From NCBI GenBank assembly GCA_943787485.1, contig CALSMP010000001.1, positions 1 through 64,000 on the forward strand: 64,000 nucleotides of DNA. Reading direction: 5' to 3'. The stretch's first letter is position 1. The number at the start of each line of letters is the position of its first letter. A program made the translations under genes and the position numbers. Of the stretch, positions 7,318-60,277 are shown in pieces. Below the pieces are notes generated by a model. It was given only the letters and a program-made list of their open reading frames with translations. It did not search any database and had not been told where the DNA came from. Origin of the DNA: an uncultured Luminiphilus sp. Lineage in GTDB: Bacteria; Pseudomonadota; Gammaproteobacteria; Pseudomonadales; Halieaceae.

Positions 7318-8525
7318 CTAGACGCACTGAGGGGGTTCGATGTGGCGCACATTAATTACCCCTTCGACGCTGCCTAATTTGGTTATCAATCTGTCGTCGG
7401 GCTCGCTTTCCAAGTCAATCAAGTTGTAGGCGATGTCGCCTCGGCTCTTATTGAGCAGATCGATCACGTTAATGTCGCTGTTGCCAATAAGGGTAAGAAT
7501 GTTACTCAACATCCCTGGGCTTGTTGCGGTTGGTAATTGCAATTCTCGCGCCGGTGGTTCTCTCGAGCTCAATGGCAGGGAAGTTGACGGAGTTGCGGAT
7601 ATTGCCATGCTCGAGGAATGCCTTGATCTGATCGGCGGCCATCATCCGCGCAGTTCTCCTCGGCTTCGGCAGTGCTGGCGCCAATATGGGGCATCAAGAT
7701 TGCGTCATTGCGCTGGCGCAACAGGGGGTGCGGGAAGTCCGTGACATAGCAGCGCAACTTTTTGGCGTCGAGCGCGGCGACGACGTCGTCAGTGTTGACA
7801 ATTTCCTCGCGCGCGAAGTTCAACAAACAGGCATCCGCCTTAAAGTAGTTCAGGCTTTCCGCATTGATGAGGCCACGCGTGCTGTCGAGCATCGGCACAT
7901 GAATGCTAATAAAATCTGCTCGACAGAATAGCGCCTGCATGTTTTCCATACGCTGCACATCACTGGGCAGTCGCCAAGCAGCGTCCACCGAAAGCGCGGG
8001 ATCGTAACCGACCACATCCATACCAAAGTTGAGTCCAAGACGGGCAATTAGGCTGCCGATTGCGCCAAGACCCAGCACGCCCAGCGTTTTTCCGCGCAGC
8101 TCGGCACCGGCAAAGCGTTTTTTCTCGGCTTCAAGGAGCGGTCCCATCGCTTCGGCGGATAGGCTCTCATCGAGACTACGCACAAAATCAATGCCGCCGA
8201 GGATATCTCTCGAAGCGAGCAGCATGCCGGCTGCAACAAGTTCTTTCACGGCGTTGGCGTTGGCGCCTGGTGTGTTAAACACCGGAATGCCGTGGTCGGT
8301 ACAGTAGTCGAGCGGAATGTTATTCACCCCTGCGCCGGCACGCGCAATGGCCGTGACAGAGTCGAGAATTTCGTCGGCCTGTAGCTTGTGGCTTCTGAGC
8401 AGCAGCGCATCGGGGTGTCCAATATCACTCCCTACCTCATAGCATTGGCGGTTAAACCGGTCGAGACCTTTCACGGAAATAGTGTTGTAGGTGCGTACTT
8501 TAAACACGAGTGTTTGATACTCCAA
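7318..8525 (-). CDS. serA: D-3-phosphoglycerate dehydrogenase, frameshifted
   Basis: The first committed step of serine synthesis: NAD-dependent oxidation of 3-phosphoglycerate. The main frame (7569-8525) shows the substrate domain with ARAGAGVNNIPLDYC, the NAD-binding GVLGLGAIGS, LLNFAREEIVN and the catalytic-His region MPHIGASTAEAEENCA. An extra base near 7640 moves the frame to MMAADQIKAFLEHGNIRNSV. Another near 7520 moves it to GMLSNILTLIGNSDINV, the C-terminal ACT domain that normally binds serine for feedback inhibition, ending NVRHIEPPQCV. Corrected length is about 395-400 residues, the usual size of the short SerA class. As this is a biosynthetic gene with all motifs present, the shifts are probably sequence errors. 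A terminator-like hairpin lies downstream. Confidence 0.85.
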
Positions 8526-9691: not shown

Positions 9692-10477
9692 ATGAGCGAG
9701 CAAGAACAACCCACGCAAGAAGAGCTTGCGGCGCGGCTCAGGGTCGTGTCCCGTCTTGCGGGCGTGGGTAAATTATCAGCCGGTGCGGCCCATGAGATTA
9801 ATCAGCCGCTCAATGTGATCAGGATGGCGGCCTACAACCTGCGTCGATCAATTGAGAAGGGCACCCTGGAGACCGAGACCGCTCTCGCCAAGTTGCAGCG
9901 CATTGATGAGCAGATCGATCGTGTCGCTCGATTGGTCGGAGGCATGAAGGCATTTTCACCCACGAGTAAGCAGGATCACTGCACCATCGATCCCTCTGAG
10001 GCAGTGGCCACTGCTCTCGAGTTACTGGCCAAGCGATTCGGCGCTGCTGAAGTCGCCCTGGAATACCACCCCGCCGATAAACCGGTGGCACTGCAGTCAC
10101 CGCCAACCGCCATTCAGGAAGTGGTTGCTCATGTGGTCGACAATACACTCGAGGCCTATGGCCCGGTGGCAGAGGTCGACCCGTTTGCTAGCAATAAGAC
10201 AGTCATCGAGCGAAAGCTCACCATTACCGAAGTCGTTAGCGATGGCCGCTTTACGTTATGTTTTGAAGACGGCGCCGGCGGCATGGAGACTGAATTCCTT
10301 GCCAAAGCGGCTGAGCCGTTTGTTACCGCCGATGAGACAGCCGGCCATGCCGGCCTTGGCCTGACGATTTGTCGGGACCTAATCACCAGCATGGATGGAG
10401 AGTTTCTCCTTGAACCTGTTGAGGGTGGTCTGCGGGTGACGGTCAGTCTGCCAGTAACTCAGGCCTCGGCCAGCTAA
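9692..10477 (+). CDS. Small soluble sensor-type histidine kinase lacking a sensor domain
   Basis: 261 residues with no signal peptide, membrane segment or PAS/GAF domain. After about 25 residues comes the dimerisation/phosphoacceptor helix with the H-box AAHEINQPL (His34). An HATPase domain follows: N-box HVVDNTLEAY (about 150), G1 region FEDGAGGM, F-box-like AEPFVT, and G2 GHAGLGLTICRDL. This HEINQPL type belongs to the NtrB-like kinase group. No response regulator is adjacent. It converges on the cytochrome/TonB operon with only 34 bases between stops. Its catalytic core strongly resembles that of the membrane kinase at 16739-19282 at the other end of the operon, suggesting related roles (inference). 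The missing sensor suggests it is driven by a partner protein. Confidence 0.85.
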   Translation: MSEQEQPTQEELAARLRVVSRLAGVGKLSAGAAHEINQPLNVIRMAAYNLRRSIEKGTLETETALAKLQRIDEQIDRVARLVGGMKAFSPTSKQDHCTIDPSEAVATALELLAKRFGAAEVALEYHPADKPVALQSPPTAIQEVVAHVVDNTLEAYGPVAEVDPFASNKTVIERKLTITEVVSDGRFTLCFEDGAGGMETEFLAKAAEPFVTADETAGHAGLGLTICRDLITSMDGEFLLEPVEGGLRVTVSLPVTQASAS

Positions 10478-10511
10478 ACCCGTTATCCAGCAGAGCGGAG
10501 ACCGTAACCTA

Positions 10512-11978
10512 TTACTTGGTTAATGCCAGCATATACTTGGCCACCTCGAGGCGCATGGCCTCCGAGATGTGATCCTGCGGTGGCATGGTGGGGAAATCCG
10601 GACGCTTTTTCTCGGGTGCTGCGATGTATTCGGCAATTGCCGTGGCGTCGCTACCGTATTGCGCTTTAATCGCCATCACCGGCGGACCAATCATCCGAAT
10701 ATTGTAGGTGTGACATCCCGCGCAAATACCCTGATAAACCAGCTTGGCGCCATCGGCATCCACGGTAATCACGCGCGGAGTAGCGGGCTCAGGCAGCATC
10801 TTGGTGCTGATGTCACGGGTCGTACCCGCGAGGGTCGGCTTATCACCCACGGCGTCGGCGGCAGTGACCGTTGGGCTATCACAATCGGTCCAGTCCCCCA
10901 GGCCAAAGGTTCGGTAGGCCCCCTTGCGGCTGACGCAACTACCGCGCTCGGCTTCTGCGGCGCCCTTGTAGGCCATGATGTCAGGGCCCGTCGTGGAGAG
11001 CTGGGTAAGCATGAGGACTTTCACGTCGGTTGCTGGATCATTGCCATTGTCGTACATCACGTTGTCGCGGATTTGTACGCGATCGGGATTGGGGTCCGAG
11101 TCAGGATCGCCGGCCACATCTGTTGCGAAGTCCTGACTGGTGACGATGATGCCAGCGGTGTTGTTGCCGCTGATGATGTTGTCTTCAATGATCACGTCAT
11201 CACCTGCCAGGACGATCATGCCTGTACCCGCGGGAATAGTAGAGACCAGCGACCCGGGAATGGCGAAGTTGGGGGTGTTGTTGTCGATCACGGTATTGCG
11301 ACGGATGATCGCATCGTAAGAGGTTTTGATCGGTAGTCCCGGGGTAATGAACACCAGAATGCCGCCGGTGTTGTTATGCGCGATATTACCCTCGACCAGG
11401 GCATGACGGCTGTTCTCGATTTCAATGCCGGCCACATTGTCGAATACGCGGTTATTACGCACATCGATGTGGTCACACATCCCCACGTATATAGCAGCGT
11501 CTTCAATACCGCTTAGCACGTTATTCTCGATCAGCCCATTCTCGCCAAACTCGGGGAAAATGCCGTAAACACCGGTATCAATAATCCAGTTATTACGGAT
11601 CGAAAAGTTATTTCCCGCCTGCCCCATAATGGCGTTGCCCTTGTAGTTCGTGATCTTGAACCACTCGACGGAAAACCCGTTACCCGAATACAAAATGGCA
11701 TCGTTGAGCTGCTTATCGCCTTCGAGATTCGGCCATTCACCTTCCTCGACCACGCCTTTGAGCGTGATGTCGTCTTTATCGACGTACACGGTCTCCCGAT
11801 AGGTCCCCGGATAGACCAATATGGTGTCACCGGCTGCAGCGGCTTTCACTGATGCCTGAATCGAATCCCCATCACGTACTTCATGAATAGCGGCGTGACT
11901 TAATGGTGCTAGAACCACCAAGCATCCCGTAAGCCAGAAAGGGAAAAGTGCGGATCGTAAAATCGTATTGGGCGTCAT
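10512..11978 (-). CDS. Secreted parallel beta-helix protein fused to a cytochrome c domain
   Basis: 488 residues. A signal peptide (LTGCLVVLAPLSHA) is followed by right-handed parallel beta-helix repeats of about 22 residues, rich in Asn ladders (IRNNWI, IENNVL, VRNNRVF, IEDNIISGNN). This architecture resembles the NosD/TIGR03805-type proteins that often sit beside exported cytochromes of unknown function. The C-terminal 90 residues are a monoheme cytochrome c: CAGCH at 419-423 and a likely axial Met in MPPQ at about 465. It is the last gene of the operon that starts at 16449. RBS AGAGG precedes ATG 11976-11978. Beta-helix faces often bind polysaccharide or metal-loaded surfaces; no pectate-lyase-like catalytic set was recognised, so the role is unknown. 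A heme on a beta-helix implies electron transfer in the periplasm or at the surface. Confidence 0.8.
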   Translation of the reverse strand: MTPNTILRSALFPFWLTGCLVVLAPLSHAAIHEVRDGDSIQASVKAAAAGDTILVYPGTYRETVYVDKDDITLKGVVEEGEWPNLEGDKQLNDAILYSGNGFSVEWFKITNYKGNAIMGQAGNNFSIRNNWIIDTGVYGIFPEFGENGLIENNVLSGIEDAAIYVGMCDHIDVRNNRVFDNVAGIEIENSRHALVEGNIAHNNTGGILVFITPGLPIKTSYDAIIRRNTVIDNNTPNFAIPGSLVSTIPAGTGMIVLAGDDVIIEDNIISGNNTAGIIVTSQDFATDVAGDPDSDPNPDRVQIRDNVMYDNGNDPATDVKVLMLTQLSTTGPDIMAYKGAAEAERGSCVSRKGAYRTFGLGDWTDCDSPTVTAADAVGDKPTLAGTTRDISTKMLPEPATPRVITVDADGAKLVYQGICAGCHTYNIRMIGPPVMAIKAQYGSDATAIAEYIAAPEKKRPDFPTMPPQDHISEAMRLEVAKYMLALTK

Positions 11979-12009
11979 GAGAATGCCTCTTTAATAGCAA
12001 CTGGTTTTA

Positions 12010-13248
12010 TTAATCGTCGTCGCGGGCTGTGGCCATCACAGCAAGCGCTGAACCGGTTTCGCTGATTGTTGAATCGGCGGCGCGACCGGGCGCCAAGCCT
12101 GAGGGTAGTGTAACCGGTATTTCAGGCATAAATGACTGATCGGTGAGGGCGCCTAAAAAGTCTACCACCCGATCCAGCTCCTGATCCGTCAGCTGTGGAT
12201 CCCAAATATGCCAATGGAGCTTTAGATCTTCGCCTTCGGGCACCGCGTGACCCCTACCGCCGGTGTAGAAAGCGACGGTTTCTCGCAGGGTGTCGAAATT
12301 GCCCGCGTGCATGTAGGGCTTAGTCAGTACCACATTGCGCAGGCTGGGAACCCGAAAACCTGCTCGCTGACTCGGATCGCCGCTCGTCGCGGCTGCGCCT
12401 GGATCGAGGGGGCGACCCATTTTTTCGGGTACACCAAGGACAGCAATCTGCTGGTTGGTAAACAGGGGTGGGGTGTGGCACTCAGCACAGCGCGCTACGA
12501 ACGAGCGAAAGACATTGAGCCCCTCGATTTCGGGCTCCGTTAACGCACTGTGCACCCCGTGGGCGTAAAGATCATAGCGACTGTTGAGTGAGATCAGGGA
12601 GCTTTCAAATGCAACCAGTGCTGTATAAATACGATCGAGGGTGATTTCACCCTCTCTGTGACCCTTACCTTCATCCCCGTCGTAGGCCTCGGCAAATAGT
12701 GCCGGGTAGTGATCGTTTTCTGAAAGTTTTTGGACGAGTGATTCTGGGCTTCCAGCCATCTCATCGTCTGCGTACAGGGGTCCAAGCATTTGTTCTTCGA
12801 GCGAGCGCTTGCTGCCGTCCCACAAGAGCTTTTCCAAAAACGCGACATTCCACAAAGAGGGGGCGGAGCGTTTGATCGGCTCGCCGGTGGCGCCAATGCT
12901 TTGGGCGAGTCCGTCGCTAAAGCCCAGCGCTGGGTCATGACAGCTCGAGCAGGCAATGTCGCTATTGCCCGACAGCAGTGGATCGAAAAACAGATAGCGG
13001 CCTAGGTCAATTTGCGCGGGGGTAAAGCCGTCACGTACTGCCGGTAGTCCGGTTCTGAGTCCGCCTACCCCGCGATCGTACAGCGAGCGGTAATTGAGGT
13101 ATTGGCTGTAGAGCCGGCATCGGCCCGACTCGTCCAGCCGCAGGGCAGGAGGGCAGTGTGTGGAAAGCTCAAAGTGCTCGTTCGCATCCGAGGCCCACAG
13201 TGGGCCTCCCAACAGAAGTAGTAGCAGTAAGGCGCCAAGCTGCAGCAT
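12010..13248 (-). CDS. Periplasmic diheme enzyme of the cytochrome c peroxidase/MauG superfamily
   Basis: 412 residues with signal peptide (LGALLLLLLLGGPLWAS). Two c-type heme sites: CSSCH at 100-104, followed by DPALGFSDG as in CcpA/MauG proteins, and CAECH at 254-258. Further family motifs are RSAPSLWN, WDGS..SLEEQ and the distal loop YMHAGNFDTLRE. Such enzymes either reduce hydrogen peroxide with cytochrome electrons or, like MauG and MbnH, use a bis-Fe(IV) state to oxidise a protein partner. Sequence alone does not decide which. It starts 2 bases after the stop of the upstream diheme cytochrome, so the two are translationally close, and it lies in the TonB-receptor operon. The natural electron donor would be the upstream cytochrome (inference). 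Confidence 0.85.
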   Translation of the reverse strand: MLQLGALLLLLLLGGPLWASDANEHFELSTHCPPALRLDESGRCRLYSQYLNYRSLYDRGVGGLRTGLPAVRDGFTPAQIDLGRYLFFDPLLSGNSDIACSSCHDPALGFSDGLAQSIGATGEPIKRSAPSLWNVAFLEKLLWDGSKRSLEEQMLGPLYADDEMAGSPESLVQKLSENDHYPALFAEAYDGDEGKGHREGEITLDRIYTALVAFESSLISLNSRYDLYAHGVHSALTEPEIEGLNVFRSFVARCAECHTPPLFTNQQIAVLGVPEKMGRPLDPGAAATSGDPSQRAGFRVPSLRNVVLTKPYMHAGNFDTLRETVAFYTGGRGHAVPEGEDLKLHWHIWDPQLTDQELDRVVDFLGALTDQSFMPEIPVTLPSGLAPGRAADSTISETGSALAVMATARDDD

Positions 13249-13250
13249 GG

Positions 13251-14006
13251 TCAGTCGTTGACGGGTAGCGTCGCTTGATAGCTGGCAATCGAGATCACCA
13301 CGTCTTCAGGGATGGCGGGGGCGAGTCGGTACATCTGTGCTCCCCATGGATCATCGGGGTGCGTACCGCGGCGCCCGCCACGGAAGTGCTCGTACTGGCT
13401 TACCAAGTACCAGTCGTTGATTCCGGCGAGGGCCGGTGCCGACAGCGCTTCATTGCCTAGCCCATCCGACCCGTGGCAAGCGGCGCATAAATTTAAGTGG
13501 TAATCCTTGCCCAGTTTAAGGTCTCCGCTGAGCGTGGCGGACACTGGTAGCGCTGGGAGTTCGTCGACATAATTTGCCAGTAAGGTAATGTCATCGTCAG
13601 AGAGTTTTGCGCTGGCTGCTGCCATGATTTGGCCATGGGTATCCTCGGGGTGGTTTCCCCGCAAGCCATCGCGAAAATAGGTTAGCTGCCGCTCGACATA
13701 CCAAGAGTCGAGGGTGGTCAGAGATGGCGCCCTCAGCTGGGGATTGCCCGAGCCGTTACCGTTGTGGCATTGACTGCATTGGTCGCTATACAGCGTCGCG
13801 CCTGGATGCCTGGGATTCACGGTGTCCACTGCCACCACCTGAGGTGAGATGCTTGTACCCGCATCAGCCGTGTTCGAGCTATCACCACCACAGCTCATAA
13901 GCACGCCGCTCAGTCCAAGCCCCAGCATCGCGACTATTAGTCGGGTGAGCGGAGTACGCCTTCCCGAGCGCTCCTTTACCGGGATTGGGGTCGCGGGATC
14001 ACGCAT
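13251..14006 (-). CDS. Diheme cytochrome c lipoprotein
   Basis: 251 residues from the ATG at 14004-14006, chosen because AAGGAT sits about 8 bases upstream. A longer frame to 14060 would overlap the upstream receptor gene. An N-terminal hydrophobic segment ends in the lipobox LMSCGG (Cys39), so it is probably a lipoprotein. It contains two cytochrome c domains with CSQCH (77-81) and CAACHGSDG (174-178). Each is followed by a similar WYxxxQxxxFRxGxRGxHPxD segment, showing internal duplication of the cytochrome c4/c553 type. It is second in the operon and probably feeds or drains electrons for the diheme enzyme encoded 2 bases downstream. Confidence 0.85.
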   Translation of the reverse strand: MRDPATPIPVKERSGRRTPLTRLIVAMLGLGLSGVLMSCGGDSSNTADAGTSISPQVVAVDTVNPRHPGATLYSDQCSQCHNGNGSGNPQLRAPSLTTLDSWYVERQLTYFRDGLRGNHPEDTHGQIMAAASAKLSDDDITLLANYVDELPALPVSATLSGDLKLGKDYHLNLCAACHGSDGLGNEALSAPALAGINDWYLVSQYEHFRGGRRGTHPDDPWGAQMYRLAPAIPEDVVISIASYQATLPVND

Positions 14007-14034
14007 GCTAAAAATCCTTTTTCGGTGTGTAATG

Positions 14035-16449
14035 TCAGAAGCGGTAAATGCCTTCAACACCCCATGTTAGCGGATCTTGGATGCGAAAAATGGGGGTGCC
14101 AAAAACAGCCACCGTTGTCTGGCTGATACCGCCGATGCGGTTGTCATCCAGTAAGTTCCGACCCCACAGGGCGACTTCCCAGGTTTCATCGGGATTGGTC
14201 CAGGACAAGCGGGCATTGAGTTGGGTGCTGTCGTCCAAATACCCCTCTATTCGCTCGTAATCTGGGTTGTAGTTGGCGTCACCACTATCCCGGGTGTTTT
14301 CGCCAAAGATATATTCAGCTCGCAGCAGCATTTGGCCGCCCGCAACCTGAGGTTGCCAATCCATGGTTAGGGTGTAGTTAGTTGCGGTGTTGCCTGACGA
14401 GTCAAACTGGGTTAGCTCACCGACCGCGTTATAAAACTCCGCTGACTCGGTTTCTTCTTCTCGATAGGTAGTCAGTGCGCTAAGCAACAAACTCTCTGTG
14501 ACCAACCAGTTAAGCGTCACCTCGACCCCTTGCACGCTGCTATCCACGTTGATAACGGTTGGGATCGCGTTGTCCTGTCCCGGTGGTTTGGTTTCCACCG
14601 AGCGCTGCCGCCCTTCCACTTCGAGGTCAAAGAAGGAGAGCTCGACTTGCAGTCGGTCGGTAAAGAAGTCGCCCTTGATCCCCAGTTCAAACTGCTCTGA
14701 CTCTTCCGGCTGCAGGGGCTCCTTGCTGGTTTTGATTGCCAAGGAGTCAAAGCCGCCGGCCTTGTAGCCGGTCGAGAAGGAGGCGTAGGTCAACAGCGTG
14801 TCTGTTAGGCGGTAGGTACCCACAAGACGTCCCGTCAATTTGCTCCAGCTGTCACTGGCTTCCAAGGGGGTCGTCTGCGCCGAGGCATACTCACCCCGAG
14901 CATCGGTGAAGATCTGACTGGTTACCCCGGGGCGAAGCGCGTCCAAAGAGGTGTTCGGAATCAACCAGCTAAAGTCTTTGTTGTCTTCGCTGTAGCGCAG
15001 ACCGGCGATCAGGCTCAGGCGATCCGAAAAGCTGTATTCAATGTCGCCATAGATGCCGTAGTTCTCGAATTCGCCCTCATTGATGATGGCTTCATTCCAG
15101 ACCTCGCCCGCGAGCGAAGGCCCGTAAAGCATGGGCTCACCGAGTGCGCCAGAAATCAGCTCATAATACAAATCACCTGAGGATGCGACCTCCTCTTCGG
15201 TGAGTGGGATACCCAACGCGCTCAGCGTCGCGGCGTACTCATCCGCATTCCAGATGTGATCAAGACTGAGACCGAAGGACGAATTGAGATCCTGGGTCAC
15301 GAGTCGAGCTATGGAGTCAGCGAGGGCATTGGCATCGGTACGCTGGAAGGTATTCTCAAGGCTGTATGTGGCACCCATTACAGCGTTGATACGATCGGTA
15401 TTAAGGTTAAATTGCAGCTCGGCGTAGAAGATATCCGAATCTTCGATGTTGTTGGTGTCGAAGTAGCGTGTGGGATCCGCGGTGCCGTCTTCATCCTGGC
15501 GATTGGTTGTTTCAAAGTCGCGATAGTTAACGATCGCGGTCATCGACCATTCGTTGCTCAGAGTCTGAAACCATTTCCCGGTAATGCCATACATGTCGCG
15601 GGTTTCTTCACCGTTGATCACGTCATTGGCGTAATAACCGCTGTAGGGATCCAGGTTGAGGGAATAAGGGCTGACGCCGATCGCCATACTTGGGGCCTGG
15701 TTAAAGTGATCGACATCGACTGCCAGTTGTAGTGCCGTGTCTTCCGACGGCTCCCAGCGCGCAGCGATACGGCCCGCCCAGTTGCTCTTCTCGCCGGCGT
15801 CAAACTTTGCTGACTCGACATTCTCGGAGATGCCGCTGCGTTGATTGGTCAAAAAATTGGCGCGAACCGCAAAGCTGTCGCTGACCGGCAAGTTGAACAT
15901 GCCCTCAACCCGTAACAAGTCATAATTGCCGGCTCGCAGACGCGCGAACCCTTCCGCTTCATTGCTCGGCGCATTGGGAATTAGACTTACAACACCCGCT
16001 GCGGCGTTGCGACCAAATAGGGTTCCTTGCGGCCCTCGTAACACCTCCACACGCTCCATGTCGGCAAACGCAACGGTCGTTGCTGCTCGGGGAAGATAGG
16101 CGCCGTCATAAAAAGTCGCTACCGAAGGGTCGCCGCCGGTTGAGATGTTGGGGCTGGATATGCCGCGAATCGAGTAGCCTTGCTGAGTGAAGGTCTCACC
16201 CCCTGCATCGAAGCCCACGATGTAAACATCAATATCCTGAAGGGTGAGTGCCCCGGTTTTTATAATGTCTCGCTGGGAAAAGGTCCCCATCGAAATAGGC
16301 ACGTCGATGGCCTGTTGCTGCCGCTTCTGCGCGGTTACGATAATTTCTTCCAGCAGCACGTCGGCGGTCTGGGCCGCTGCAGGTAAGGCGATCGCTGCGG
16401 TGATCCCGGCCGCGAGTAGTGTCGACTTAAAATGGGTGCTGGATTTCAT
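14035..16449 (-). CDS. TonB-dependent outer-membrane receptor
   Basis: About 804 residues from the ATG at 16447-16449, which has AGGGGA upstream and begins a signal peptide (LLAAGITAAIALPAAAQ). An upstream in-frame ATG at 16494 is possible but less likely. TonB-box-like EEIIVTAQKR is near residues 34-43. The plug domain shows VPISMGTFS, YSIRGI, VEVLRGPQGTLFGRNAAAG. A beta-barrel follows, with repeated strands such as FSTGYKAGGFD and a C-terminal Phe (GVEGIYRF). The style (QKRxQxxxDVPIS) matches the large receptor group abundant in sphingomonads and marine gammaproteobacteria, whose ligands range from carbohydrates to siderophores and aromatic compounds. It is first in an operon with three cytochrome-containing proteins. 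The ligand is unknown; a substrate that must be oxidised in the periplasm or a metal complex would fit. Confidence 0.9.
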   Translation of the reverse strand: MKSSTHFKSTLLAAGITAAIALPAAAQTADVLLEEIIVTAQKRQQQAIDVPISMGTFSQRDIIKTGALTLQDIDVYIVGFDAGGETFTQQGYSIRGISSPNISTGGDPSVATFYDGAYLPRAATTVAFADMERVEVLRGPQGTLFGRNAAAGVVSLIPNAPSNEAEGFARLRAGNYDLLRVEGMFNLPVSDSFAVRANFLTNQRSGISENVESAKFDAGEKSNWAGRIAARWEPSEDTALQLAVDVDHFNQAPSMAIGVSPYSLNLDPYSGYYANDVINGEETRDMYGITGKWFQTLSNEWSMTAIVNYRDFETTNRQDEDGTADPTRYFDTNNIEDSDIFYAELQFNLNTDRINAVMGATYSLENTFQRTDANALADSIARLVTQDLNSSFGLSLDHIWNADEYAATLSALGIPLTEEEVASSGDLYYELISGALGEPMLYGPSLAGEVWNEAIINEGEFENYGIYGDIEYSFSDRLSLIAGLRYSEDNKDFSWLIPNTSLDALRPGVTSQIFTDARGEYASAQTTPLEASDSWSKLTGRLVGTYRLTDTLLTYASFSTGYKAGGFDSLAIKTSKEPLQPEESEQFELGIKGDFFTDRLQVELSFFDLEVEGRQRSVETKPPGQDNAIPTVINVDSSVQGVEVTLNWLVTESLLLSALTTYREEETESAEFYNAVGELTQFDSSGNTATNYTLTMDWQPQVAGGQMLLRAEYIFGENTRDSGDANYNPDYERIEGYLDDSTQLNARLSWTNPDETWEVALWGRNLLDDNRIGGISQTTVAVFGTPIFRIQDPLTWGVEGIYRF

Positions 16450-16515
16450 GGCTGTCCCCTGATCGATGGCTGTCGTTGGTTTTGTTGTTGTCATTCTTGT
16501 TGTGATTGTTGTTAT
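16450..16515 (-). promoter_or_regulatory. CAA/ACA-rich leader of the TonB-receptor operon
   Basis: The minus strand just before the receptor start is dominated by AAC/CAA/ACA triplets (for example AATAACAACAATCACAACAA). Such unstructured ACA-rich leaders can enhance ribosome loading and are typical targets of base-pairing small RNAs of the GcvB kind. The composition is seen; any regulatory role is inferred. Confidence 0.3.
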
Positions 16516-16738
16516 TAATGAGACAAGTATGTGTGAACCTTTAAAAATCTCAACTGAAATTGGCGCTTAACAGTTACGTTTTCAGACGCTTACTCAGCGT
16601 GGCCATTTTGGCTTTTTCGAGTACAGTAGCGTCATTCGGGCTTTACCTTTTTAATAACTGGGACAGTTGCGTCAAAAACAGGTTGCCTCGTAGCCTTAAT
16701 AACCACATAGTTCTAGGGGTAATCACAGGGAGGTGGTT

Positions 16739-19282
16739 ATGGAAGGAGGCGCTGTGGAAACGCGTGGCAACAGTTTATTACGTACCAATTGGGGTCAGAC
16801 GTTTGGCATTGCGCTGGTCGGGGGCGCAGCGGCCTTTGCGCTTGAGTACGTTCGGGTCGATCCTACCTTTGGTGTAGGGGTTGCACTCTGGCTATTTTTT
16901 CCCCTTGTCGTCTTATCGCTGTGTGGTGGCTTCGCCGCCATGGGTTCGGCAGCGGTGGCCGTCACCTTACAATACTCGTTAAGCGATCACGCGCTCTCTG
17001 CATTTGATGCCGCCATTTATCTGTTTACGGTTACCGCGTGTTGCCTCGTTGTTTGGCGCACGCGACAAATGCGTATTGTCGATGGGGTATTACTGTCTTG
17101 GGCGGCGGTAATTCCGGCCAATGTCATTTATCACCAAGCACTGTTTCAGTATGGATTGAATGCGGGGATTTTGGAGCTTTCCTCGGATCTCATGTCTCAG
17201 CTGATTCCGGCGATGCTGGCGCAGTGGTTGGCTATGAGGCCGTTTCCATTGGCCCCGTTATTCCCACGTTTATCCTCTACTATGGCAACGAAACCGTATG
17301 GCCTAGCGGTCGTTATCCGGCTATTACAACTGCCTATCGTCTTGCTTTTACTCCTCGCTAGCATTGAATTCGTTGCCACCCAGTCGCTTTACCAAAGGGT
17401 AGAGCTTGAGCGCTCTCTGGCCCTCCAACGTGCTCATAGTGTGATGGTGGTGGCAAAGTCCGTCCTAGAGGGCACGTCTTTTTCCCAACAAGACGCGCTT
17501 GAGGAGCAGGTGGTAGAGGAGCTTTTGCGGGCAATGGCGGTATCGGCGTCTTTTGTAGAAACGGGTTTAACACAAAAGGTAGACGAGGCGGCACAGCCCG
17601 AGTCGGATGCCACAGACAGAGAAAAATTAAAGACCGTAGATCTTGGTCCCTTTAAGAGCGGGTTGCGCATCGACCTGCTGTTTGATGCTTATGAAACTCC
17701 GCCAGTGGCTCAGCCAGCCATTGTAATCACGCCCTCGACTCAACAGCGCGACAGAAGCCCTATCGATTGGGTTTATCAGCGTGAGTGGATGGTTGAGGAG
17801 CCTTTCACCCCGGATTTTCGTTCAGGCACCGTTAGGATTAGTGGTCAGGTAGCGAACCCCGTGGCGGTCAACTATTGGGCCATGATGTGGGGCCTGCTGG
17901 CGACCTTTGTTCTTCTTGGAGGCTTACTAGGTATTTACCAAAGGTGGGTTCGTCGGGCTGGCGAATCAGTGCGCCAAAGTCTCCGTCAATTTGCCGCGTG
18001 GCAGCCGGGCGATAACATTGTGCTCTCGCTGCCGTTTGAGCGCGGACTAATTGATGACGTCGACTCGGTGCGAGATAACCTGCAAGGTCTTATCGATAAA
18101 TTCAATTCGAATTACCATGAGCTGAATGCTTCTAATGCCCGGCGTGAGCAGTTGTTGAATCAACTGAAAACCATCTACTCGGCCATAAATGAACCGATTA
18201 TCGTTGTCAGTCAGGGATTTCAGCTGAACGAGTCGTTAAGTAACCAGGCAGGTATTGATTGGGGGCGACGGCTTCAATCAGATTTAGCCCAGGTGAAGCG
18301 AGCGCTTTTCGCTGAAAAGCCGCAGAGCGCTGAAATCCGCCCTATGAGTAAGTTTGCAAGCATTCTGTTGGCGGAACTCCAGGAAGGGGTTTCACGAGAT
18401 AAATCGGCGATTCGCTTGTGCAGCGAGACAGGCGAACAAACTGATTTCTATGTGTCTGTCGGTGCAATAAGCAAGAAGGAGAGTGACGGTTCGGCGGTCG
18501 AAAATTCTGGCGTAGAAGGCGATATTGTCATTCTGCTGAGTGATGTTTCTGAAAATATTGCTGCGCGAAAAGCGCTTGAGCACCAGTCTAAAATTACAGC
18601 GCTTGAGGATCTAGCGACAGGTATCGCTCATGAATTGAACCAACCCTTAAATATTATTCGGCTAGGGCTGGCAAATATTGAGCAGCGGGCAGCACGAAAA
18701 ACTCTCGATGGCTCTGCGCTTGCTCACAAAATTGAGCGGCTCAATGAGCAAGTAACGAGAATGGGTGTGTTAATTAAGGCGATGGGCGTCTACTCAGCCT
18801 TTGAAAACGCGAATCCGAAAGCGATCGATCCCTGCGTCATCTTGGCAGATGTGCTTGCCACGATGAACCATGATCTCGTTACGCACCACATAACCGTCGA
18901 GACTGTATGCGATGCCGGCAGCCATTGTGTTGTGGCCAACGACAAATACCTGGGGAGACTGTTCGCTGAGGTGCTCGGTAATGCCTCGGACGCTCTGAAA
19001 GCCGTAGATGTTGAAGTCCGAAAACTGTTTGTTCGCCAGTATACCGATAAGCACTACTGGATTGTGGAGATCGAGGACAGTGGTGAAGGTTTTATGGAGG
19101 AGGACGAGAATCGATTATTCGAGCCCTTTTATACGACTAGACAGGATGCGGAACATGCTGGTTTGGGCCTTACTACTGCGCGGCATATTGTGAGCGACCT
19201 GGGTGGGACAATTACAGTTGAGCGACGTGCTCATCGAACTTTAGCAACGATAAGACTGCCCCTCGAATTAGCTAGCGCCTAG
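16739..19282 (+). CDS. Membrane-bound sensor histidine kinase
   Basis: About 847 residues from the ATG at 16739 (GGGAGG upstream; a GTG at 16733 is also open). The N-terminal 200 residues are hydrophobic with about six membrane segments, MASE1-like in layout. A further membrane helix (LLQLPIVLLLLLASIEF) starts near 205. An extracytoplasmic stretch of about 150 residues and another helix (LLATFVLLGGLLGIY) near 385 follow, then a linker, a poorly conserved PAS-like segment, the H-box IAHELNQPL (His near 631) and an HATPase domain (LGNASDALK, EDSGEGF, FEPFYTTR, HAGLGLTTARHI). No receiver domain and no response regulator lie nearby. It is divergent from the TonB-receptor operon (about 290 bases between starts) and its catalytic core resembles that of the small kinase at 9692-10477. 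Confidence 0.85.
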   Translation: MEGGAVETRGNSLLRTNWGQTFGIALVGGAAAFALEYVRVDPTFGVGVALWLFFPLVVLSLCGGFAAMGSAAVAVTLQYSLSDHALSAFDAAIYLFTVTACCLVVWRTRQMRIVDGVLLSWAAVIPANVIYHQALFQYGLNAGILELSSDLMSQLIPAMLAQWLAMRPFPLAPLFPRLSSTMATKPYGLAVVIRLLQLPIVLLLLLASIEFVATQSLYQRVELERSLALQRAHSVMVVAKSVLEGTSFSQQDALEEQVVEELLRAMAVSASFVETGLTQKVDEAAQPESDATDREKLKTVDLGPFKSGLRIDLLFDAYETPPVAQPAIVITPSTQQRDRSPIDWVYQREWMVEEPFTPDFRSGTVRISGQVANPVAVNYWAMMWGLLATFVLLGGLLGIYQRWVRRAGESVRQSLRQFAAWQPGDNIVLSLPFERGLIDDVDSVRDNLQGLIDKFNSNYHELNASNARREQLLNQLKTIYSAINEPIIVVSQGFQLNESLSNQAGIDWGRRLQSDLAQVKRALFAEKPQSAEIRPMSKFASILLAELQEGVSRDKSAIRLCSETGEQTDFYVSVGAISKKESDGSAVENSGVEGDIVILLSDVSENIAARKALEHQSKITALEDLATGIAHELNQPLNIIRLGLANIEQRAARKTLDGSALAHKIERLNEQVTRMGVLIKAMGVYSAFENANPKAIDPCVILADVLATMNHDLVTHHITVETVCDAGSHCVVANDKYLGRLFAEVLGNASDALKAVDVEVRKLFVRQYTDKHYWIVEIEDSGEGFMEEDENRLFEPFYTTRQDAEHAGLGLTTARHIVSDLGGTITVERRAHRTLATIRLPLELASA

Positions 19283-55755: not shown

Positions 55756-58700
55756 ATGCAAAAGACAATGCTATCAGTGAACGTTGAGCGGGGGCGGTCA
55801 GCAGGGCATCCACACCAGCTCATCCGGGGGCCGTTGTTTACGCTCCGCAGCGACCTGCGGACAGGTGTGCTACTTATCGCTGCATTGCTGATTGCTTTGG
55901 GTTGGTCTGGCCTCTCCTCAGCCCAGACCCATGGCAACGCTTTTTCCTCGTTAGTAAATACCGTCCAAGGCGCGAGAACCGGAACTGGCGGAGATAAAAC
56001 GGGAGGCGGGACTACTCCAACAGATGCGACGGATTATTTTATCCAGTACGTGGATCCAGTCGTGCAGAGTAACTGCGTTGCTTGTCACCGTCCTGGTCTG
56101 GTGGCCGAGCAACAGGGCGCTCGCTTGCTTTTTGGGAATGACGCGACCGCTAATGAACAGGCTGTCTATGAGTTCGTATCCCGCGACGGCGTTGGTGCCG
56201 ATTGGTTGCTTAATAAAATTGCTGGCGATCTGAATCACGGCGGCGGCGCCGTCTTAAGCCGAGGCGGCGACGACTACAATAAGTTTGCCGAGTATCTGAC
56301 ACTGGCCACAGGCGCTAATACGGGTGGTGGCGACGTCGGCATTGCCAATCTATGGGCTGGCACCCAGCTTGAACCGCGGGAGACAACGCTGCGTCGAGCG
56401 GGCATTCTCCTGTCCGGGACACTCCCATCTGCTGAGATGATTAATCGTGCGAAGGTCTCAGATGAAGCCCTCCGGGCCGAGGTGCTCAGGCTGATGGTGG
56501 GAGATGGGTTTCATGACTTTTTAATTAATGGTGCCAATGATCAGCTGCTTACTGATGGTCTGAACAATGGCATCGACTTTCAATTTGGATTTTGGGATCG
56601 CTTTCCCGGATTTTCCGCCTACGCTTCCGAGTTACCGGAAGAGCGTCCGGAAGAATTTAACGATTACCACGACAAGCCTTTCTTAGCCCAGAACGAGGCC
56701 GAGTGGGACTTTCGCTGGGCGGTTGTTAGAGAGCCTCTAGAGTTAATCGCAGATATTATTGAAAGTGGGCAATCGTATAAAAAAATATTGACAGCGGATT
56801 ACACCATGGTGAATCCCATGAGCGCCTTCGCGTATCGAGCAGATGTGGATTTTGGCATCGAGTTTCCGGACGCACAGGGGTTCTATGACCGGTCTAAACT
56901 AAACGTTTTCAAGCGAGCGAGAAACCTCGGTCATATCCCCTACGATGATGAGTTCAATTTTGACTGGGAAACACGCACGCATCTCAGCTTCAGTGATTAT
57001 CAGGAATGGCCACACGCGGGTGTCTTGAGTACGCCCGCGTGGCTCGGTCGATACCCTTCAACCGATACTAATCGAAATCGAGCGCGTGCCAGATGGACTT
57101 ACTATCACTTTCTAGGAGTTGATATTGAGAAATCGGCCCCCAGAACAACCGACCCGGATGCACTGGCTGATACAGACAACCCTACCTTGAAAAACCCAGC
57201 CTGTACCGTATGTCATGAACGGATGGATCCTGTGGCGGGCACTTATCAGAGTTTCGGTGACCAAGGAAGTTACCTCGACCAACATGGCGGTAAAGATTCG
57301 TTGCCAGAGTCCTATAAATATCCCGAGTGGCATGGTGGCGAGCCTGGATCAACTGGGTATCAGGAGGGCGATACGTGGTATCGAGATATGCGCGCTCCGG
57401 GGTTTGAGGGGACGAAGGCTTCAGGCACTCAGGACAGCCTGCAATGGTTGGGCCAGCAAATTGTTAATGACCCGCGGTTTTCGGCGCAAGCTGTACGCTT
57501 CTGGTGGCCGGCAATTTTTGGTGAGCGGGCAGCAACGCCACCAGAAAACCCCGATTTACCTGACTATGATGCCAGGCTGATGGCCTTCAACGCGCAAGAG
57601 GCGCTTGTGGGCGAGCTGGCTGAAAAATTTGAAGCTAGTGCATTCAGAGCGAAGCAGTTATTTGCCGATATGATACTTTCGCCTTGGTTCAGGACCAGTG
57701 CGGTCGATGATTCAACTTTGACCGCCGTTCAAAGAGTTGCTTTAGAGAGCGTGGGTAGCGGCCGCCTCTTAACCCCCGAGGAGATTGATCGAAAAAACCG
57801 TGCTGTGTTCGGACGTACCTGGGGTCAACAGGCAATGGGTAATGCGCATGATTACGAGCCGAGCAGTAACTTTAATCGAGGCTGGGGAGGCTACTCCACG
57901 TTCTATGGTGGAATTGATGGCGCCACGGTCACGACGCGAAATAGAAATATGACAGCCTTAATGTCTAACGTGGTAGAAAAAATGGCGTTGGATTTGTCGT
58001 GTCAGGTTGTACTGGAAGAGTTTTCTTACCCGCCTGAGGAGAGGCACCTCTTCAAGTGGGTTGAAAAAACCACCCATCCGTTACAGCTGGCTAACGCGCA
58101 GTTTGATCTTGAAAAAGACCCCGCTGTGAATCAGGAGACGCCTGAATTCTATGAACGGGAACTTGCCTTTACTTCGGGTGATGGTGAGTTGGTTGTAAGA
58201 ATCAGTGATGTGTCCCCTAACGGGTGTATAAGAGATGATGAGAGGAGTACCGATGATCGTTGGGAAGGGTGGTGCTCTCATATTGGCTTGGAGCGCATCG
58301 ACTTAGTGAAAGAAGGTAGGGTTGTTAAGTCGCTGCAGGGTGCGGAGATTGAAAACTTTGCAGGCTTTGCCAATCAACAATGGTATGACGAGGAAACCGG
58401 TGACAGCGGAGACCGAGGGTGGACCAACACCGTTGATGGCAGGACATTCTGGGCCGCGCACACAAACGCGTGGTTTTCATTGGAATTTGATGTCCCCCCG
58501 GGTAGCTATGAGGTTCAGCTCACGCTGGTGAGTTGGTTCAACGAGGGGCATCCCGAATCGGCAGTCTCTACCGATATTGCTGTGTCGAGCCTAAAGTTTG
58601 ATCCTGAATCAGAAGGCGCCTTGCAGGTCTCTCAGCAGCTGCAGGAGCTGTATCGTCGCGGGACGACGAGGGCGATAAGCCCCGATACCCAAGCCAGCAC

Positions 58701-58920
58701 TCTTGACGCGATGATTGATCTTGCACAGGAGTCGTCGAGCAGCAATTCGTGGTTCCAAGGCCATTGTGACATCTGGGCTATATGGAATAACAATGATTAT
58801 CAAGAGAATGATTGGCATGAACTGATGAATAGGGTAAATCAGGACCCCTCTGGCATGATGGTCGCATGGACCATGACGATAAATGCGTTATTGACCAGTT
58901 ATCTGTACCTACACGATTGA
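55756..58920 (+). CDS. Secreted diheme DUF1592/DUF1588-type protein
   Basis: 1,054 residues. Hydrophobic export segment TGVLLIAALLIALGWSGLSSA is at 36-56. A cytochrome c motif CVACH (107-111) follows in the usual DPVVQSNCVACHRPG context. A segment LSGTLPSAEMINRAKVSDEA resembles the DUF1592/DUF1587 helices seen in planctomycete cytochrome-like proteins. A second motif CTVCHERMDPVAGTYQSFG near 483-487 is the DUF1588 signature. Further parts resemble DUF1585-like Trp/Tyr-rich segments and a C-terminal beta region (FSLEFDVPPGSYEVQLTLVS). The function of the family is not established. It pairs with the DUF1501 gene starting 14 bases downstream. It has its own 188-base upstream gap after murU; no clear promoter was chosen. 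Confidence 0.75.
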   Translation: MQKTMLSVNVERGRSAGHPHQLIRGPLFTLRSDLRTGVLLIAALLIALGWSGLSSAQTHGNAFSSLVNTVQGARTGTGGDKTGGGTTPTDATDYFIQYVDPVVQSNCVACHRPGLVAEQQGARLLFGNDATANEQAVYEFVSRDGVGADWLLNKIAGDLNHGGGAVLSRGGDDYNKFAEYLTLATGANTGGGDVGIANLWAGTQLEPRETTLRRAGILLSGTLPSAEMINRAKVSDEALRAEVLRLMVGDGFHDFLINGANDQLLTDGLNNGIDFQFGFWDRFPGFSAYASELPEERPEEFNDYHDKPFLAQNEAEWDFRWAVVREPLELIADIIESGQSYKKILTADYTMVNPMSAFAYRADVDFGIEFPDAQGFYDRSKLNVFKRARNLGHIPYDDEFNFDWETRTHLSFSDYQEWPHAGVLSTPAWLGRYPSTDTNRNRARARWTYYHFLGVDIEKSAPRTTDPDALADTDNPTLKNPACTVCHERMDPVAGTYQSFGDQGSYLDQHGGKDSLPESYKYPEWHGGEPGSTGYQEGDTWYRDMRAPGFEGTKASGTQDSLQWLGQQIVNDPRFSAQAVRFWWPAIFGERAATPPENPDLPDYDARLMAFNAQEALVGELAEKFEASAFRAKQLFADMILSPWFRTSAVDDSTLTAVQRVALESVGSGRLLTPEEIDRKNRAVFGRTWGQQAMGNAHDYEPSSNFNRGWGGYSTFYGGIDGATVTTRNRNMTALMSNVVEKMALDLSCQVVLEEFSYPPEERHLFKWVEKTTHPLQLANAQFDLEKDPAVNQETPEFYERELAFTSGDGELVVRISDVSPNGCIRDDERSTDDRWEGWCSHIGLERIDLVKEGRVVKSLQGAEIENFAGFANQQWYDEETGDSGDRGWTNTVDGRTFWAAHTNAWFSLEFDVPPGSYEVQLTLVSWFNEGHPESAVSTDIAVSSLKFDPESEGALQVSQQLQELYRRGTTRAISPDTQASTLDAMIDLAQESSSSNSWFQGHCDIWAIWNNNDYQENDWHELMNRVNQDPSGMMVAWTMTINALLTSYLYLHD

Positions 58921-58933
58921 TGGAAATCTATAG

Positions 58934-60277
58934 ATGAATTGGAGCCATTCATACAACTTATCCCGACGGAGGATGCTCAAGGGAATGGCTTTAGGAACCT
59001 CCGCACTCACTACTGCCTCGAGCCTCAAGGTTTGGGGCAATAGCGTCGATCCTTACGCTGGACGACTTCTCGTGACTCTTCAGCTTGATGGTGGCGCTGA
59101 CGTTACTCAATTTTGTGACCCAAAAGTGAACACGCCTGGCGAGCCAAAAATTAATCATTGGGCAGACACCTTGGATCCCGGTTCCGTAGGCAACATCCGA
59201 TACGCGCCCGTAGCTGATAATGCTAATTTATTCAGGCGCTATGGTTCGGAGATGGTTGTCATAAATGGCGTTGATGCCCAAACAAATTCTCATGAAACAG
59301 GGAAGCTTTATAATTGGACGGGGAGCAATGCCGAGGGATTGCCCTCAATAACTGCCCTGCACGCAGCCGCTGTGTCTCCCGATCAACCTTTAGCCTATGC
59401 GGTTTATGGTGGCGCTTCCCGAACAGCCGGCCTCATTACGTACAATCGGTTCGATGATGTCTCAAGACTCCGTGAGTTGTCGGAACCTAATCGCTCACCA
59501 TGGGATCCCGGAAATTATCTTCGGCCCGAGTCTGAGCTTATGCTGGCTAGGCGCATCACCAGTCAAACTATTGCAGCGTTACTGGATCAACCTGGTCTAA
59601 CGCCTAGGCAGCGACGAAACCTGGTCAATCAAAAAATAGCGCGAGAGGGTCAAGAAGGACTGGCCAGATTGTCTGATTCGCTTCCTTCGCAGGAAGAAAT
59701 GCAAGAAGCAGAGGAATTTCAGGTTGGTGATTTTAATTTTTGGTCTAATTTGAAGCAGCAAATGCAGGGCGCCCTACTGGTGATGAAGTCGGGTTTGGGG
59801 TCCTCTGCTGATCTGGCGCTAGGCGGCTTTGACTCCCATGATCAACACGATCCTATTCACGAAGCGCTTTACTATCACCTTGCCGAGGCGTTGTATTTCT
59901 TCTGGAATTACGCTGAGGAACTCGGTCTTGCTGATCGGATCGTGCTCGTGATCGGTTCCGACTTCGGACGCACTAATTTTTATAATGACGGTAATGGCAA
60001 AGATCATTGGAACATTGGATCCTACATGGTCATGGAGCAGGGTGCCTCTTGGGGCAACCGCGTGGTTGGGGTGACCGATGAGCTTCATTTTGCTCAGCCA
60101 ATCAACCCTGTTTCTTTGCAGCCTGCCAGCGGTGGTGTGATTTTGACGCCGGCACATGTGCACAAGGCGGTTAGGCGTTATATGGGTATTGATGAGTTTG
60201 CTCAGTCGGTTGGCATGGGGTTGGCCGGTGTGGAGGATATTCCGCTGTTCGATCCCAGTAAAATGACGCTTATCTGA
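58934..60277 (+). CDS. Tat-exported DUF1501 family protein
   Basis: 447 residues with a twin-arginine signal SRRRMLKGMALGTSALTTA. The DUF1501 (sulfatase-fold-related) pattern is clear: LVTLQLDGGADVTQFCDP near the N-terminus, INGVDAQTNSHETG, DLALGGFDSHDQHD, and VLVIGSDFGRTNF with GNGKDHW near the C-terminus. These metal-binding Asp/His positions match alkaline-phosphatase-superfamily folds. DUF1501 genes are usually paired with DUF1592/DUF1588-type cytochrome proteins, as here. The pair may be a periplasmic or surface complex; the substrate is unknown. Confidence 0.85.
   Translation: MNWSHSYNLSRRRMLKGMALGTSALTTASSLKVWGNSVDPYAGRLLVTLQLDGGADVTQFCDPKVNTPGEPKINHWADTLDPGSVGNIRYAPVADNANLFRRYGSEMVVINGVDAQTNSHETGKLYNWTGSNAEGLPSITALHAAAVSPDQPLAYAVYGGASRTAGLITYNRFDDVSRLRELSEPNRSPWDPGNYLRPESELMLARRITSQTIAALLDQPGLTPRQRRNLVNQKIAREGQEGLARLSDSLPSQEEMQEAEEFQVGDFNFWSNLKQQMQGALLVMKSGLGSSADLALGGFDSHDQHDPIHEALYYHLAEALYFFWNYAEELGLADRIVLVIGSDFGRTNFYNDGNGKDHWNIGSYMVMEQGASWGNRVVGVTDELHFAQPINPVSLQPASGGVILTPAHVHKAVRRYMGIDEFAQSVGMGLAGVEDIPLFDPSKMTLI

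Follow-up and report, generated by a model that had tools for sequence, protein, structure and literature searches.

A conserved pair of a MauG/MbnH-like diheme enzyme and a beta-helix cytochrome in Luminiphilus and its relatives, a candidate periplasmic oxidation module

Gene content of the locus and conservation of the pair

The DNA analysed here (the window) is a stretch of 64,000 nucleotides from an uncultured Luminiphilus sp. of the family Halieaceae (assembly GCA_943787485.1, contig CALSMP010000001.1, positions 1 to 64,000 of the forward strand), and the subject is a cluster of six genes within it (Table 1). A TonB-dependent receptor (TBDR), a diheme cytochrome c (DHC), a diheme enzyme resembling MauG and MbnH (MAUG) and a beta-helix protein with a cytochrome c domain at its C-terminal end (BHC) follow one another on the minus strand, and two histidine kinases on the plus strand (K1 and K2) bracket them. 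A first-pass annotation, made from the letters of the sequence, had described these genes and proposed that they form one redox and uptake system. An open reading frame (ORF) check and family scans confirmed all six ORFs and their domains, the HisKA score of K2 (24.5) falling just under the Pfam cut-off of 26.9. DHC and MAUG are separated by 2 bases and MAUG and BHC by 31. The listed GTG start of DHC overlaps the end of the TBDR gene; the true start is likely the ATG at 14006, 18 codons downstream, with which the overlap disappears. A lipobox-like motif (LMSC) was read by eye in DHC, and lipobox-like motifs also occur in many other DHC proteins of the Halieaceae.

Table 1 Genes of the cluster in the Luminiphilus window.
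Gene	Position	Strand	Product and features	Place
K1	9692-10477	+	Soluble histidine kinase, HisKA and HATPase_c, without a recognised sensor domain	
BHC	10512-11978	-	Exported right-handed beta-helix with C-terminal His/Met cytochrome c domain	Core gene
MAUG	12010-13248	-	MauG/MbnH-like diheme enzyme, PF03150, two CXXCH	Core gene
DHC	13251-14060	-	Diheme cytochrome c, two cytochrome c domains	Frequent third gene
TBDR	14035-16494	-	TonB-dependent receptor, Plug and barrel domains	Outside conserved core
K2	16733-19282	+	Membrane histidine kinase, HisKA and HATPase_c	Outside core

Comparison with other genomes shows that MAUG and BHC form a conserved pair. A comparison of BHC alone with public species genomes gave 42 loci, and the relatives of BHC among them put the genome of the window within or beside Luminiphilus. 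A BHC profile was also searched against 140 genomes of the Halieaceae, 369 from the class and 398 from the phylum. For part of the matches the DNA around BHC was fetched, 80 stretches in total: L044-L118 are 75 Halieaceae loci, L119-L121 are three copies from the same family that diverge more, and L122 and L123 belong to the class set. Together with the 19 non-Halieaceae loci of the 42-locus scan these make up a tally set of 99 loci, all selected by BHC alone; the other 23 of the 42, all Halieaceae and many on the same contigs as fetched stretches, were excluded from the tally. Wherever at least 600 nt of upstream sequence is available (95 loci), MAUG lies upstream of BHC on the same strand, within 1.7 kb; the remaining four loci had less than 400 nt. 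The profile matches of the two proteins lie a median of 117 nt apart and never more than 327 nt (97 loci). The same order was found in six of six further phylum genomes, a seventh match being that of the window itself.

Within the Halieaceae the two genes also come and go together, with both present in 92 of the 140 genomes, neither in 46, MAUG only in one (G006) and BHC only in one (G129), and both exceptions are truncated at a contig end. Searching in reverse with MAUG recovered 93 of the 140 genomes at E <= 1e-90, and cytochrome-bearing BHC was likewise found in 93 (92 at E < 1e-120 plus a contig-end fragment in G086). At the looser threshold of E <= 1e-40 the BHC count rises to 105, the additional matches being weaker ones of about 800 or 420 amino acids. 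Beyond the family the core is rare. BHC was found in 4 of the 369 class genomes (E < 1e-100) and in 7 of the 398 phylum genomes (E <= 1e-80), in each case including the window's own. The pair is spread over Gammaproteobacteria, Kordiimonas, Ruegeria and Flavobacteriales, and its surroundings are unrelated between lineages (rpoD, bamB-der, DAHP synthase and others). A divergent type of the pair occurs in L119-L121 and L123, where BHC shows 41-46% and MAUG 48-53% identity; a match to the TPR protein of Ruegeria lies nearby in L120, L121 and L123.

DHC often accompanies the pair: of the 85 loci whose upstream sequence reaches 2300 nt or more, 74 contain it, with its gene in L120 placed downstream of BHC. 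The 11 loci without it come from Halieaceae (seven), Flavobacteriales (two), Arenicella (one) and Kordiimonas. Each of its two hemes is accompanied by an invariant Met (M146 and M243), and no invariant Trp was found in the DHC alignment. To this extent the first-pass annotation is supported, in that the heme proteins are a real unit and a tightly conserved one.

MAUG and BHC in relation to known families

The family model that scores best with MAUG is that of MbnH (TIGR04039), at 215 bits against a cut-off of 362.85, and three scanned relatives scored 195-220 bits. With the MauG model (TIGR03791) the score is 158 bits, below the cut-off of 443.85 (192 for the Ruegeria copy). Tyr328 is invariant in 34 of 34 aligned copies, is kept in the Ruegeria copy, and aligns with Tyr294 of MauG and with the corresponding Tyr of structure 6e1c, whose title describes a MauG-like protein linked to copper homeostasis, while the peroxidases 1zzh and 3hq8 carry a Met there. 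By alignment, Tyr328 would therefore occupy the position of the MauG/MbnH-type ligand at the six-coordinate heme, and the Met or His ligand of the electron-transfer heme of bacterial cytochrome c peroxidase is absent from MAUG. Gln153 (nearly invariant), Pro157 and Glu163, which we take from their alignment with MauG and peroxidases to be residues of the peroxide pocket, are kept. MAUG also has an invariant N-terminal pair of cysteines (C32-C44) and an HWH motif, which are candidate differences from MbnH. Bacterial cytochrome c peroxidases head the sequence and fold matches of MAUG.

MauG matures methylamine dehydrogenase (MADH) and MbnH modifies MbnP, and the earlier comparison of the locus with such systems was apt in that the Tyr ligand is common to both. 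With MauG and pre-methylamine dehydrogenase of Paracoccus, the pair shares the CCP_MauG fold, two CXXCH motifs, the Tyr at the six-coordinate heme and the presence of a partner protein; it differs in that the neighbour of MAUG is a beta-helix cytochrome without an invariant Trp. MbnH/MbnP (TIGR04039/TIGR04052), SACCP/MopE and CorB/CorA likewise combine a diheme enzyme with a neighbouring partner, and the Tyr aligned with 6e1c is shared with this group, but MAUG has BHC and DHC as neighbours rather than MbnP. BthA of Burkholderia is a further CCP_MauG enzyme outside a mau operon with a Tyr-His six-coordinate heme; it has a Ser between its hemes and C-terminal cysteines, and the available part of its description mentions no beta-helix partner (PMC6405878).

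BHC is a distinct branch of TIGR03805, and the copy in the window scores 209 bits against a cut-off of 141.5. Three distant copies reach 163-189 bits and the most divergent one, L121, falls below the cut-off at 120, compared with 372 and 439 bits for two classic members. The classic pairing joins the TIGR03805 beta-helix with an SO2930-type diheme cytochrome (TIGR03806), whereas BHC has MAUG as its partner and its beta-helix carries a heme of its own. TIGR03806 did not match BHC, MAUG or DHC at E <= 0.01, and no match was found in the window's own genome in a search whose built-in controls were silent too. Among ten weaker TIGR03805 relatives, TIGR03806 was adjacent or fused in all four that were scanned, four more have an ORF or fusion with two CXXCH motifs, and L139 and L140 have none. 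Two Halieaceae loci, L134 (7101-9644) and L135 (4873-7242), carry single ORFs of about 800 amino acids with two CXXCH motifs, that in L134 being a TIGR03805-TIGR03806 fusion.

The single CXXCH motif of BHC lies at the C-terminus in a weakly matched cytochrome c domain, and C419, C422, H423 and M465 are invariant in 37 aligned copies. The AlphaFold2 model of BHC (pLDDT 85) is a right-handed beta-helix whose nearest fold is the A-module of the alginate epimerase AlgE4, and this fold is shared with PL6 lyases, although identity to these enzymes is 12-17%, a heme domain has been added and the epimerase motif, compared by eye, seems not to be kept. Conservation is uneven over the predicted helix, with 23 of 42 residues of sheet 3 invariant (mean conservation 0.90) compared with 2 of 31 (0.68) and 13 of 40 (0.80) in the other two sheets. 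In the turns beside the conserved sheet 19 of 31 residues are invariant, and another set of turns is also well kept (20 of 44). On the predicted model, the face formed by sheet 3 looks like a binding or active site.

A possible oxidation module and its alternatives

As MAUG and BHC are neighbours in every locus with enough sequence, BHC is the likely substrate or redox partner of MAUG. Our preferred, still tentative, reading is that the two proteins, usually with DHC, make up an autonomous periplasmic oxidation module in which MAUG oxidises, and perhaps matures, BHC. A five-coordinate heme of MAUG would bind peroxide (or O2 plus electrons), the resulting high-valent state would be shared with the Tyr-ligated heme, and MAUG would then oxidise BHC, either leaving a lasting modification, as a maturase does, or exchanging electrons with it. 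The BHC heme would pass electrons to DHC and from there to the respiratory chain, and the module would oxidise a small organic substrate (an alcohol, an amine or a sugar-like compound) in the periplasm at the beta-helix face of BHC. The parts of this scheme differ in strength. Direct action of MAUG on BHC is probable on balance; a lasting modification of BHC is a possibility that we hold with some doubt, and the oxidation of a substrate by BHC is to be regarded with equal reserve. Several Tyr residues are invariant in BHC, and Tyr60, 65, 138 and 164 survive in five divergent copies. Perhaps MAUG installs a Tyr-derived rather than Trp-derived cofactor or cross-link in the beta-helix and so creates a heme-wired periplasmic dehydrogenase of a new class, but this more specific version is unlikely.

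Some neighbours weakly point to the periplasmic oxidation of small organic substrates. On the megaplasmid of Ruegeria pomeroyi DSS-3 the gene order is AraC regulator, DHC, MAUG, TPR protein and BHC, with SPO_RS20600 as the MAUG gene and SPO_RS20610 as that of BHC, and this regulator scores best with QhpR (196 bits, below the cut-off of 250), the regulator of the quinohemoprotein amine dehydrogenase operon. In a survey of 65 flanked loci, 43 of them with full flanks, 7 had an aldehyde dehydrogenase no more than 7 kb away and 10 had an AraC regulator. In addition, a plasmid of Novosphingobium has a classic TIGR03805/03806 pair among TonB receptors, aldehyde dehydrogenases and an AraC regulator. 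The plasmid search with BHC yielded three records, namely Ruegeria with the MAUG type, Novosphingobium with the classic pair, and Hymenobacter; searching plasmids with the Ruegeria MAUG at E <= 1e-90 returned only itself.

Several observations weigh against the proposed module. No Trp is invariant among the 37 aligned BHC copies, so that a tryptophan tryptophylquinone (TTQ) or kynurenine product in BHC itself is unlikely, and a Tyr product of a MauG-type enzyme would be new. In Ruegeria the TPR gene separates MAUG from BHC, and only a minority of loci have the aldehyde dehydrogenase or AraC neighbours. The tree distances of MAUG and BHC correlate at 0.84 over 32 loci, a value that includes no control for species relationships, and the Halieaceae genomes are not independent of each other. 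The predicted model of MAUG is of low confidence (pLDDT 65). Finally, the Tyr ligand alone does not decide the function of MAUG, because the Tyr-ligated BthA forms a bis-Fe(IV) state yet turns over H2O2, according to the available part of PMC6405878.

If MAUG does modify BHC, the list of protein-derived cofactors would grow by one and the beta-helix fold would have gained a new use. To our knowledge, few MauG-type enzymes have a known partner, and MAUG with a BHC bearing a Tyr cofactor would, if real, be a further kind of maturase and partner beside MADH and MbnP/MopE, with the fold of a glycan enzyme turned into a dehydrogenase. The gene set of R. pomeroyi DSS-3 makes the question of MAUG and BHC testable. 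A literature search, which reached few subscription journals, recognised no paper on the pair, and MauG, peroxidase and beta-helix are absent from the text of PMC10100682.

Alternatively, MAUG could be a peroxide-respiring or detoxifying peroxidase that reduces H2O2 by drawing electrons from DHC and the heme of BHC, with the beta-helix as a scaffold or docking arm. This is the less likely account, though a serious one. The peroxidases that head the matches of MAUG, the preserved pocket residues, the H2O2 turnover of BthA with the same Tyr ligand, and the three further cytochrome c domains available as donors would all fit it. Against it, a peroxidase does not need a dedicated beta-helix partner with a conserved face, and the invariant Tyr of MAUG takes the place of the Met or His of peroxidases; this Tyr separates MauGs from peroxidases according to the available part of PMC7567364.

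A metal-handling pair comparable to MbnH/MbnP, SACCP/MopE or CorB/CorA, with BHC binding copper or another metal after oxidation by MAUG, is improbable. It would match the best family score of MAUG, which is to the MbnH model, the 49-bit match of BHC to the 'periplasmic copper-binding' Pfam model of NosD, and the fact that such pairs can adjoin TonB receptors (available part of PMC3621798). MAUG nevertheless stays below the MbnH cut-off, BHC lacks an invariant Trp for kynurenine formation, and the weak NosD score may accompany any beta-helix of this kind. The MbnP model (TIGR04052) had no match in the window's own genome, in a search whose own controls were also silent.

Less probable still is that MAUG is secreted and works as an oxygenase on an external substrate, in the way that RoxA attacks rubber, while BHC would hold a polymer, for instance an alginate-like glycan. 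By fold, BHC does come closest to mannuronan epimerases and alginate lyases. The catalytic motif of mannuronan C5-epimerases is YG(F/I)DPH, however, and at a similar place BHC reads YGIFPEF (compared by eye, without structural alignment), so that the acid and the histidine would be missing; moreover, no polysaccharide-degrading enzyme was present among 30 scanned neighbour proteins. The least probable reading is the six-gene system, in which the receptor would import a ligand sensed by both kinases and processed by periplasmic heme oxidation: the window and two relatives have all six side by side, but most genomes carry the core without receptor or kinases.

Receptor, kinases and surrounding genes

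The first-pass annotation had named co-occurrence among relatives as the comparison that would speak against its system, and in that comparison the receptor and the kinases do not stay with the core: the heme genes are kept together and the other three mostly do not accompany them. In 57 genomes of the genus, 37 of which have the core, K1 lies beside it in 10, TBDR in 7 and K2 in 4, and all six genes occur together in 3 of the 37, some contigs being too short to tell. Outside the window the full arrangement was found only in the relatives G105 and G078 (L048 and L049). As a conserved system the six-gene reading is rejected on these neighbourhood comparisons, which largely refute it; as a local regulon it could still hold. 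Comparison with relatives thus divides a locus that reads like one system into a core that is conserved and genes that are neighbours in a single lineage, namely the receptor and both kinases.

K1 is a resident of the SDR-rpoD locus and not part of the core. An eleventh K1, in genome G103, lies between the same SDR and rpoD genes without MAUG or BHC of this type (L144, G103:C44, 1-3800), and the classic TIGR03805/03806 pair is found elsewhere in G103 (L137). K1 looks broken in L006 (9813-10708), which shares its contig with L046: the gene is divided between two ORFs there, while the heme core is present. The position of K2 is occupied in three relatives, at 27-32% identity. The two kinases had been described as having closely similar H-boxes, but HE[IL]NQPL is a wider signature that also occurs in four other kinases of the same genome, and a closely related pair was rejected as K2 ranks only fourth among the other kinases of the genome when compared with K1 (29% identity).

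The best relatives of TBDR in six other genera (g10, g11, g16, g19, g22 and g27) lie on other contigs or more than 800 kb from the core. Six genomes of g23 have a relative with 41-44% identity within a few kb of the core and on the other strand, and the closest relative in G115 of the same group (53%) is on another contig. Of the 65 flanked loci, 17 have a TBDR match no further than 7 kb from BHC, compared with about 10 receptors expected by a rough estimate (50 per 4.2 Mb). This excess is weak evidence of a loose link between core and receptor, because three sets of closely related genomes account for 12 of the 17 loci (seven from g23, three Steroidobacteraceae and two Colwelliaceae).

Other neighbours were considered as partners and rejected. 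A haloalkane dehalogenase and a YghU-type glutathione protein accompany the core in only seven Halieaceae loci (L011-L016 and L041). They were scanned in L015 (11476-13624), where they follow the core, and the same clusters occur in the other six loci, all of one clade; a haloalkane dehalogenase match also lies near L075. BamB, Der, HisS, acyl-CoA dehydrogenase, CoA-transferase and isocitrate lyase in g23, and DAHP synthase, a sugar-dehydrogenase-like protein and an MFS transporter, among others, in further genera, are regarded as genome context with no common theme.

Elsewhere in the window, one tRNA was the only match to RNA families at gathering score. A SerA-type dehydrogenase-like ORF at 7569-8525 on the minus strand has 318 amino acids, compared with 394-395 for the ORFs in the corresponding position of L004 and L005; its tblastn matches end at residue 293, and it looks broken or mis-assembled. 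On the plus strand, two large ORFs lie side by side at 55756-60277, the first with CXXCH motifs, and by eye they presumably resemble proteins of the DUF1592 and DUF1501 types.

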